Assembly (NCBI GenBank): GCA_030453055.1
Contig: JAKDLC010000043.1
Coordinates: 1 to 10,911, forward strand
Origin: Nitrosospira sp.
GTDB lineage: Bacteria; Pseudomonadota; Gammaproteobacteria; Burkholderiales; Nitrosomonadaceae
Direction of reading: 5' to 3'
DNA length: 10,911 bases
Part shown: piece after piece, positions 1 to 9,556 of the stretch
How positions within the stretch are numbered: position 1 is the first letter of the stretch
Layout of the letters: each line of letters starts with the position of its first letter
Translations under genes and position numbers: made by a program
Notes under the pieces: generated by a model
What the model was told of the DNA's origin: nothing
Databases searched by the model: none
The model's input: only the letters and a program-made list of their open reading frames with translations

Positions 1-17
1 TTGGGAAAACGGGATTC

Positions 18-5754: not shown

Positions 5755-6759
5755 ATGTTGAAATTGCCGGATAGTAAGACAGTTGGAGTGTTGGCCGTGC
5801 TGAGTGTATGGTTCGGCGCCGTCAGTGTCGCAGGGGCTGACGCGATTGTAAAAATCGATGGTTCGAGCACTGTTTACCCCATTACCGAGGCAGTGGCGGA
5901 AGATTTTCAAATAGCCAATAAGGGTGCGGTTAAAGTAACGGTCGGAATTTCAGGTACCGGTGGCGGCTTCAAGAAATTTTGCCGTGGTGAAACGGATATC
6001 GTCAATGCCTCGCGACCTATTCTGAAAAAAGAGATGGAGGACTGCAAAGCAGCGGGTATTCAATACGTTGAAATGCCGGTGGCGTATGATGCGTTGACGG
6101 TAGTGGTGAATCCCAAAAATGATTGGAGCCGCGTTATCACTGTCGCGGAGTTAAAAAAAATCTGGGAGCCGGCCGCGCAGGGTACAATCACCAAATGGAA
6201 TCAGGTAAATCCGGCATGGCCGGATAACCCGATCAAGCTCTACGGAGCAGGCGCGGATTCGGGCACTTTTGATTACTTTACGGAAGCCATCGTCGGCAAG
6301 GCCAAATCGAGCCGCGGCGATTTCACCGCATCCGAGGATGACAATGTATTGGTACAGGGTGTGGCGAGCGACAAGAATGCGCTGGGTTTTTTTGGTTTCG
6401 CCTACTACGTCGAGAATCAGAAAAAGGTTAAGGCGGTCGCCGTTGATGGAGGCAAAGGCGGGGTTATACCTTCCGTCAAAACGGTGGAGGATGGAAGCTA
6501 CGAACCGTTGTCCCGTCCTATTTTCATTTACGTAAACATCAAGTCGGCAGAAAAACCTGAAGTCAAGCAGTTTGTTGAGTTCTATATGAAGAATGCGCCC
6601 ACGCTGGTGAAAGAAGTCAAATTCTTTCCGCTACCGGTTCAAGCCTATGCCACCAACCTGGAGCATCTCGATAAAAAGAAGGTGGGGACCGTATTCGGGG
6701 GCAAACCGGAAGTAGGTCTCAGGATCGAAGAACTGCTCAAACGCGAGGCCAAACTATAA
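5755..6759 (+). CDS. pstS: phosphate ABC transporter periplasmic binding protein PstS
   Basis: Periplasmic phosphate-binding protein of the PBP-like/PstS family, which delivers phosphate to the PstCAB permease. I prefer ATG at 5755 (334 residues) over ATG at 5743, because GGAG at 5746-5749 is then five bases upstream and a clean signal peptide results: hydrophobic core about 10-25 and an AxA-type site near residue 28 or 30. Ligand-binding motifs follow: IDGSSTV (34-40), SGTGGG (66-71), NASRP (84-88) and [10 protein letters not shown] (166-175). Cys76 and Cys97 could form a disulfide. No pstC, pstA, pstB or phoU follows; the next gene is thrS, so this is an orphan pstS within the window. A phosphate role is well supported by family resemblance; another oxyanion is less likely. 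Confidence 0.94.
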
Positions 6760-6979: not shown

Positions 6980-8890
6980 GTGACTGTCATTCGTCTACCG
7001 GATGGTTCAGAGCGCAGGTATGAGCATCCGGTAACGGTGGGCGAAATTGCGGCGTCGATCGGTCCAGGATTGGCGCGCGCCGCGCTGGCGGGCAGAGTCA
7101 ACGGCAAGTTGATGGATACATCCAGCCGCATCGAGACCGACAGCGACCTGGCCATCATCACCGAAAAAGATGCGGAAGGGCTGGAAATCATTCGTCACTC
7201 CAGTGCGCATTTGCTGGCCCATGCCGTTAAAGAGTTGTTTCCGGAAGCGCAGGTCACCATTGGCCCGGTGATCGAGGACGGCTTCTATTACGATTTTTCC
7301 TACAAGCGTCCATTTACGCCGGAAGACCTCGCGGCGATAGAGAAGCGCATGGCCGAAATCAGCACGCGTAATCTGAAAATAGAGCGCAAGGTATGGGAGC
7401 GCTCCGAAGCCATCAATTTCTTCAAGAACCAGGGCGAGCATTACAAGGCGCAGATCATCGAAGCCATACCCGGCGACGAGGATGTTTCGCTTTATTCCCA
7501 GGGAAATTTTACCGATTTGTGCCGAGGGCCGCATGTGCCGGCCACCTCCAGGCTCAAGGTATTCAAGCTGATGAAGCTGGCGGGTGCTTATTGGCGCGGT
7601 GATTCGCACAATGAAATGTTACAGCGGATTTATGGCACCGCGTGGACCAGAAAAGAGGACCAGGACACCTATCTGCGCCGTCTCGAAGAAGCTGAAAAAC
7701 GCGATCATCGTAAGCTCGGCAAACAGCTGGATCTGTTCCATATTCAAGAAGAGGCGCCGGGTATGGTGTTCTGGCATCCCAATGGCTGGATTATCTGGCA
7801 ACAGGTGGAGCAGTACATGCGGGAAGTATTCCGTGACAATGGCTATCTCGAAATCCGCACGCCATCGGTGCTGGACAAAGGTCTTTGGGAGCGTTCCGGA
7901 CATTGGGAAAATTTTCGCGAGAACATGTTCGTTACGTATTCCGAAGAGCGCGAATTTGCGGTCAAGCCAATGAACTGCCCCGGTCACGTCCAGGTATTCA
8001 AGCAGGGATTGAAGAGTTATCGTGATTTGCCGTTGCGGCTGGCGGAATTTGGTTCGTGTCATCGGAATGAGCCATCCGGTGCGCTGCACGGTATCATGCG
8101 AGTACGTGCGTTCACCCAGGACGATGCGCATATTTTTTGAACCGAATCTCAAGTGCAGGATGAGGCGGTGCGATTCATTGACCTTCTGCAGAAGGTTTAC
8201 GCTGATTTTGGTTTTAACGAGATTCTGGTGAAACTTTCGACCCGCCCGAAAAAACGCGTCGGCTCGGAAGAACAATGGGATAAGACGGAAACCGCGCTGC
8301 AATCGGCATTGAATCACAAGAAACTCGGTTGGGATCTGCAACCCGGCGAAGGTGCTTTCTACGGACCCAAAATCGAGTTCTCCCTCAAGGACAGCATCGG
8401 TCGCGTATGGCAATGCGGTACCCTGCAAATGGATTTTTCCATGCCGGAGAGGCTGGAGGCCGAATTCGTGGCCGAGGACAATTCGCGCCGGACGCCGGTG
8501 ATGCTGCACCGTGCGATCCTCGGATCGTTGGAACGCTTCATCGGCATTATTATCGAAAACTATGCCGGGGCGCTTCCGCTATGGCTTTCACCGTATCAGG
8601 CGGTGGTGCTGAACATATCCGAAGGACAAGCGGACTACGCCCGGAAGGTGGCCGGTGAGCTCAAGCACAATGGCGTTCGCGCGCACGCGGACTTGAGAAA
8701 TGAGAAGATAACCTATAAAATACGGGAACATAGTTTACGAAAATTACCTTATCAAATCATAGTGGGCGACAAGGAAGTGGCGGCGCAAATGGTCGCCGTG
8801 CGAACCCGTACGGGTTCCGATCTCGGCCAGATGTCTTTACAGGCGTTGATTGAACGCCTTAAGGCGGAGATATCCCGGAGATATTCATAA
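6980..8890 (+). CDS. thrS: threonyl-tRNA synthetase ThrS, interrupted by an in-frame TGA
   Basis: Class II synthetase that charges tRNA-Thr. Read through codon 387 the product is 636 residues (E. coli 642): TGS domain about 1-62; editing domain with HSSAH (His73, His77) and Cys181/His185; catalytic core with motif 2 RNEPSG; anticodon-binding domain from about 530. Zinc ligands Cys333, His384 and His510 match E. coli Cys334, His385 and His511 one-for-one. The start is GTG at 6980, with AAGGA six bases upstream. The oddity is TGA at 8138-8140, where the family has the Cys of HIFC; the same frame continues with normal ThrRS sequence. Termination there would leave a 386-residue fragment without His510, motif 3 and the anticodon domain. 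GTG at 8153 could start a 245-residue second part but has no ribosome-binding site. As thrS is normally essential, a sequence error, suppression, or another thrS copy must be considered. Confidence 0.95.
8138..8140 (+). other. in-frame TGA replacing the conserved Cys codon in thrS
   Basis: The local codons read CAT ATT TTT TGA ACC GAA, where His-Ile-Phe-Cys-Thr-Glu is expected. One base change (TGC or TGT to TGA) explains it; no insertion or deletion is needed. TGA is the true stop of ftsH, folP, glmM and infC, so it is not a general sense codon here. A 5-bp inverted repeat (GAATC 8144-8148, GATTC 8172-8176) lies downstream but its 23-base loop is a poor match to a bacterial selenocysteine-insertion hairpin. 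Confidence 0.9.
8693..8721 (+). promoter_or_regulatory. candidate sigma-70 promoter for infC inside thrS
   Basis: TTGAGA (8693-8698) and TAAAAT (8716-8721) each match the consensus at five of six positions with an ideal 17-bp spacer. The site lies in an AT-rich patch near the 3' end of thrS and would give a leader of about 200 bases before infC. In E. coli, infC is also transcribed from promoters inside thrS, which supports the reading. No experimental evidence is available here. Confidence 0.5.
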
Positions 8891-8935: not shown

Positions 8936-9556
8936 GTTCAAGAAAAAGCAGCGCGCATCAATCAGGAGATTAATGCGCCGGAAGTACGCTTGATTGGTGT
9001 AGAGGGGGAGCAGATAGGCATAGTCACCCTGGCGGTCGCCAACGCTTTGGCGGAGGAGGCGGAGGTGGATTTGGTTGAGATTGCACCTACCGCTCGACCT
9101 CCGGTGTGTCGCTTGATGGATTACGGCAAGTTTCGTTATCAGGAGAGTAAGAGAAAGCACGAAGCCAAGCTCAAGCAAAAACAAATTCAGATAAAGGAAG
9201 TCAAGTTCCGGCCGAACACTGACGATGGCGACTACAACATCAAGCTGCGAAACTTGATTGGTTTCCTGGAAGAGGGTGACAAGGCCAAAATTACATTGCG
9301 CTTTCGCGGACGGGAAATGGCGCATCAGGAATTCGGCGTGCGCTTGTTGGAGAGAGTGAGAGACGATCTGGAGCCGTATGCGGTGGTGGAGCAGTTCCCC
9401 AGGATGGAAGGGCGGCAAATGGTGATGGTGCTGTCGCCTCGAAAGAAGGAAGTAAAAGCAGCGAAGCCGAGGGAAGCCAAGCTGAGGGTAGTCACCGAAA
9501 CCGGTAATAACGCAGCACCGTCCGCAGGCGTGGATTCGGCGCCAACACAGGGGTGA
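8933..9556 (+). CDS. infC: translation initiation factor IF-3
   Basis: IF3 binds the 30S subunit, prevents premature joining of 50S and checks start-codon and initiator-tRNA fidelity. Read from the ATA start the product has 207 residues: N-terminal domain about 8-80 with the family signature DYGKF (63-67), a Lys/Gln-rich linker helix, then the C-terminal domain with [11 protein letters not shown] (91-101) and RFRGREMAH (123-131). E. coli IF3 has 180 residues; the extra length here is a charged, Ala/Pro/Thr-rich tail after about 170 that looks disordered. It begins 42 bases after the thrS stop and belongs to the conserved thrS-infC-rpmI-rplT cluster. Expression is probably autoregulated through the AUA start and possibly driven also from the promoter inside thrS. 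Confidence 0.96.

Follow-up and report, generated by a model that had tools for sequence, protein, structure and literature searches.

The thrS gene of a Nitrosospira-like genome bin carries one in-frame TGA at a position where related genes encode cysteine. The question raised by this locus is whether the TGA belongs to the living organism and, if it does, how it is read. The window (the whole 10,911-nucleotide stretch analysed) is contig 256 of a bin of 2.50 Mb in 446 contigs, which is 80.34% complete and 2.77% contaminated. The initial annotation left three readings: a sequence error, a genuine nonsense mutation covered by suppression or by a second thrS, and recoding of UGA, for example to selenocysteine. 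It placed recoding last, and that ranking is right. The choice can now be narrowed. A sequence error is the favoured reading, since isolated premature stops also interrupt other conserved genes of the bin; one, a TAA, sits at the edge of its contig. Selenocysteine is effectively excluded by the results for SelA, SelB and tRNA-Sec. The interrupted gene has the following parts.

6980..8890, plus strand: thrS (threonyl-tRNA synthetase, ThrRS) frame, interrupted once (reading frame, Pfam, alignment to E. coli 1qf6)
6980..8137, plus strand: N-terminal piece of 386 codons with TGS, tRNA_SAD and the start of the class II core, profile positions 7-70 of 179 (Pfam)
8138..8140, plus strand: TGA in frame at residue 387, where 22 of 22 congeners have a Cys codon (sequence, congener comparison)
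8141..8887, plus strand: C-terminal piece of 249 codons with the remaining class II core, profile positions 73-179, and the anticodon-binding domain (Pfam, constraint)

The thrS frame contains 636 codons from a GTG start to a TAA stop. As first described, the TGA at 8138-8140 is its sole internal stop; the 249 codons 3' of it are all open. When the two pieces are searched with Pfam, the TGS, tRNA_SAD, class II core and HGTP anticodon domains appear in the order typical of ThrRS. Owing to the TGA at 8138, the gene lacks the single uninterrupted frame of a ThrRS. In the alignment with E. coli ThrRS (1qf6), residues Cys333, His384 and His510 of the window correspond to Cys334, His385 and His511, which coordinate a zinc ion according to a figure legend in PMC9880928. 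The window has the Cys, His, His zinc ligands of bacterial ThrRS. The offset is a constant 1 at all three ligands, so the change in thrS is a substitution with no indel at the site, as had been proposed from the numbering. Domain order, zinc ligands and the position of the HIFC motif are shared with the E. coli enzyme. The window differs from it in the TGA, which takes the place of a Cys of E. coli (residue 388 by the offset).

The comparison of close relatives at this codon, suggested earlier as a check, gives Cys in all 22 congeneric loci. Cys is also present in 80 of 80 loci kept from a GTDB scan and in 58 of 58 loci from a viral-contig collection; QDDAHIFC was one of six search patterns for these two sets, and both are biased towards Cys. 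Among proteins, 119 of 120 have Cys at this position (best 120 of 8000 matches) and the one exception has Ala. This exception fits P0108, which is frameshifted exactly there. P0007 and P0108 are public ThrRS entries with apparently frameshifted C-terminal ends; their source contigs measure 114 kb and 148 kb. The S. aureus ThrRS (1nyq) has Val at the TGA position, so the Cys is replaceable. It is a lineage-conserved residue that is neither a zinc ligand nor universal.

The coding constraint on thrS is similar in the window and in its relatives. The median dN/dS of the window against the congeners is 0.034 before the TGA and 0.049 after it. Between congeners, the medians are 0.030 before the TGA position and 0.050 after it (177 of 231 pairs; the other 54, too close or saturated, were left out). 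Only one otherwise invariant column is broken by the window alone in a set of 31 sequences. The 30 relatives each break between 0 and 11 such columns, and nine of them break more than one. By these measures thrS shows no sign of decay and the gene appears to be alive. The C-terminal piece has not drifted, which argues against an untranslated thrS with a stop of any age, since the C part would then drift.

A pseudogene, with thrS lost or replaced in the lineage, is extremely improbable. The stop does lie within the catalytic core, but constraint is full and not relaxed downstream of the TGA, and no replacement ThrRS was found in the bin. Given the unchanged constraint after the TGA, pseudogene decay was rejected. 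A two-piece ThrRS with an internal restart was also rejected. The cut falls inside the class II core, and no ribosome-binding site is apparent by eye before the GTG at 8153.

Full constraint on the rest of thrS is also what would be expected of a very young mutation. A very recent, genuine nonsense allele of the sampled population would be tolerated through an intact thrS elsewhere, a suppressor tRNA or basal UGA readthrough. This explanation is unlikely. The second thrS that the initial annotation had offered as cover did not turn up in the 80%-complete bin. The single other thrS match there spans residues 255-388 only, at 30% identity, and is presumably ProRS. A second thrS or a suppressor could sit in the missing 20% of the bin, but each of the 22 congeners, whose genomes are 93-100% complete and whose ThrRS is 87-93% identical to that of the window, has one strong thrS match only. 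The break also falls within the class II core, and neither piece is a plausible enzyme.

The best public matches include no near-identical copy of either piece. The two pieces were searched against 5.8 billion proteins, with a length limit for the C part that admits fragments only. Among the best 120 of 8000 matches for each piece, no protein exceeds 96% identity to the N part or 89% identity to the C part. Over the first 386 residues, identity is 91-94% to the ThrRS entries named Nitrosospira and 96% to the nearest other entry. No truncated product near 100% identity is present among these best 120 matches with either piece, which counts against a nonsense allele. The same matches include no independent TGA-bearing record and no intact copy from the same species. 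In a class-wide draw, thrS is matched in 339 of 369 genomes. Among approximately 150 places listed of these matches, the thrS of the window is the only one with an internal stop.

Searches for SelA, SelB and tRNA-Sec did not find the selenocysteine machinery in the genus. SelA is found in 0 of 23 genus genomes (E 0.001). Neither SelB nor tRNA-Sec scores above its curated cut-off in any of the 23, and both have sub-threshold matches in all 23. By frame length, the weaker SelB matches are probably EF-Tu, IF2 or LepA. For tRNA-Sec, the bin itself has ten sub-threshold matches, and the six listed all fall on ordinary tRNA genes for Ser, Leu, Gly and Tyr. The search for sel genes had been advised at the outset, where no convincing insertion hairpin had been seen. 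The RNA directly 3' of the thrS TGA folds no better than shuffled sequences, with z-scores of 0.87 (50 nt) and -0.94 (80 nt), and Rfam at gathering scores gives no match in the window. Of the features that would mark a selenoprotein gene, both the set of selA, selB and tRNA-Sec and a SECIS hairpin after the UGA are missing.

Insertion of selenocysteine at residue 387 of thrS would have in its favour that a UGA takes the place of a Cys, which is also the pattern of known selenoproteins. To revive it, selABC would have to lie in the 20% of the bin that is missing, although none of the 22 congeners has such a set. With the machinery absent and no structure after the TGA, selenocysteine at this residue is effectively excluded for the genus.

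In the bin, UGA serves as an ordinary stop codon. It terminates 151 of 307 ORFs called in 436 kb of sampled bin sequence; the figure for the congener G003 (900 kb) is 282 of 662. Of the eight genes checked in the window, four end in UGA. RF2 is intact and is preceded by a CTT-TGA-C frameshift site with GGAGGT just upstream (L260 (G000:C437) 1281-1430). The autoregulatory frameshift site of prfB presupposes that UGA is a stop. A recoding of UGA to cysteine would be recognised by the loss of UGA as a terminator or by an altered RF2, and the bin displays neither.

The tRNA genes of the bin bear on both suppression and cysteine reading. None of the 25 tRNA genes recovered has a UCA anticodon, which counts against a suppressed nonsense allele. 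The genes for tRNA-Cys and tRNA-Trp are absent among these 25, and a DNA search for tRNA-Cys gives short fragments at most. Either could have a suppressor allele, so their absence leaves room for a nonsense allele, and the missing tRNA-Cys gene leaves room for UGA being read as cysteine. The bin has two tRNA-Phe genes, at L215 (G000:C350) 127-201 and L210 (G000:C246) 9022-9097. The tRNA-Phe gene on C350 has an imperfect 3' end and resembles a duplicated attachment site, and C246 also has an IS21 IstB-like gene. An element may have integrated at tRNA-Phe.

Other conserved genes of the bin are interrupted as well. ORFs of the congener G003 (a 1.3-Mb sample) were aligned to a bin sample of 537,279 bases in 81 pieces, which gave 154 alignments covering 53,611 codons on 32 contigs. 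Besides thrS, two premature stops in conserved genes are present in these aligned codons.

L204 (G000:C60) 5891-5893, minus strand: TGA at a conserved Cys, residue 167 of an rpoE-like sigma factor (G003 alignment, congeners)
L204 (G000:C60) 12-14, minus strand: TAA at the conserved Tyr136 of a lepB-like signal peptidase, at the contig edge (alignment, residues matching on both sides)

The position of the rpoE TGA is Cys in 22 of 22 congeners. Pfam sigma-70 regions are matched in this gene of contig 60, which we therefore take to be rpoE. The lepB gene is presumed to be such from its recognisable signal peptidase sequence. No stop is present in thrS or rpoE in any of the 22 congeners.

A total of 15 stops were met in the G003-bin alignments, five of which lie 25 or more residues inside both ends of the alignment, and ten nearer to an end. 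Of the five inner stops, thrS and rpoE account for one each, and two over-extended G003 ORFs for the other three. For one of these ORFs an upstream part read in another frame is indicated; the second was judged by eye to be over-extended. Among the ten near-end stops, only the lepB TAA was counted, because the sequences agree on either side of it. In the reverse control 22 stops were met, eight of them at least 25 residues inside; all eight fall in three G000 ORFs (63-74% identity) that are taken for spurious ORFs.

Scans made without a reference yielded 15 and 35 candidate stops, with overlapping sets. The 35 comprise 12 TGA and 23 TAA or TAG candidates, and a Pfam check covered nine of the 12 TGA candidates, with rpoE as the positive case. 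The rpoE stop alone lies within a Pfam match. None of the nine further TGA candidates does: five have matches that end before or flank the stop, and four have no match.

The thrS TGA is most probably a wrong consensus base in a fragmentary, metagenome-type bin. Such a base could arise from thin read coverage, or the assembler may have retained a minority read. The living organism would then probably have an ordinary Cys codon and a normal, full-length ThrRS. The genes thrS and lepB are generally essential. A cell in which thrS, rpoE and lepB are all cut does not seem credible, and the interruption of rpoE and lepB also counts against a nonsense allele in thrS. Three conserved genes each broken by a substitution-type stop are better explained by scattered base errors than by biology. 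The third stop is a TAA and is not explicable by UGA recoding. We infer both the miscalled base and the low coverage of the assembly.

The number of errors that this explanation calls for can be calculated. When all substitutions are equally frequent, approximately 3.4% of them are nonsense. At this rate, two to three nonsense calls would imply some 60-90 wrong bases in 161 kb, or one per 1.8-2.7 kb, which is compatible with one or two in thrS.

Several observations count against an error. A simple test reveals no frameshifts in the 154 alignments, and the assembly is not grossly poor. No stop occurs in 28 ABC-ATPase and 11 cytochrome c matches from the whole bin, although this sample is small. 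The lepB stop lies at its contig edge and could be an unrelated effect of that edge. Of the three premature stops, two are TGA at a Cys codon. The share of Cys among nonsense-creating changes is 3.2% at equal rates, 4.0% for transversions, 6.0% for C>A/G>T and none for transitions. Only the second Cys case gives a fair chance figure, because the first was chosen for being a TGA at Cys. That second case is a 1-in-17 to 1-in-32 event (approximately 3-6%), which is mildly odd.

The same pair of stops bears on another explanation, in which UGA still serves as a stop and is in addition decoded as cysteine at a low level in a few places, by a UCA-anticodon tRNA-Cys or by near-cognate reading of a normal tRNA-Cys, without selenocysteine machinery. 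ThrRS and the RpoE-type sigma factor, two central proteins, would then depend on cysteine inserted at UGA for their full length. Both TGAs that break conserved coding in the aligned sample lie at a conserved Cys (thrS 387, rpoE 167), and none stands opposite a Trp of G003, where 609 TGG codons are seen. The second TGA at a conserved Cys leaves a small chance for this explanation. Against it, there are only two TGA in the aligned set compared to 520 TGC or TGT codons, and the 22 congeners have no stop in either gene. The termination of sampled ORFs and window genes by UGA, RF2 with its CTT-TGA-C site, the stop-free ABC-ATPase and cytochrome c matches and the nine TGA candidates outside Pfam matches all argue in the same direction. 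The lepB TAA would be left unexplained. The TGA-at-Cys pair is a hint that must outweigh a very low prior, normal UGA termination, an intact RF2 and 22 stop-free congeners. Reading of UGA as cysteine in thrS and rpoE is very improbable.

A possible precedent is the tRNA-Cys genes with a UCA anticodon (selC*) described in some anaerobic bacteria (PMC7609411), together with a possible reading of UGA as cysteine there. Such a tRNA would turn a UGA at a Cys site into Cys. Unlike those anaerobes, the genus has no tRNA-Sec-like RNA or SelB above the cut-off in any of its 23 genomes.

With a wrong consensus base as the preferred explanation, the locus resembles the isolated nonsense and frameshift calls in genes of draft metagenomes. 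It shares with them a single lesion, a constrained, essential gene and a fragmented bin that has further lesions of this kind. It differs from them in that the lesion is a TGA at a conserved Cys, the classic signature of a selenoprotein. If the TGA is an error, a TGA at Cys in a draft genome is no evidence of a selenoprotein. If it is true in both thrS and rpoE, it would represent natural UGA-to-cysteine decoding in a bacterium without selenocysteine machinery and would carry great weight for the evolution of the genetic code.
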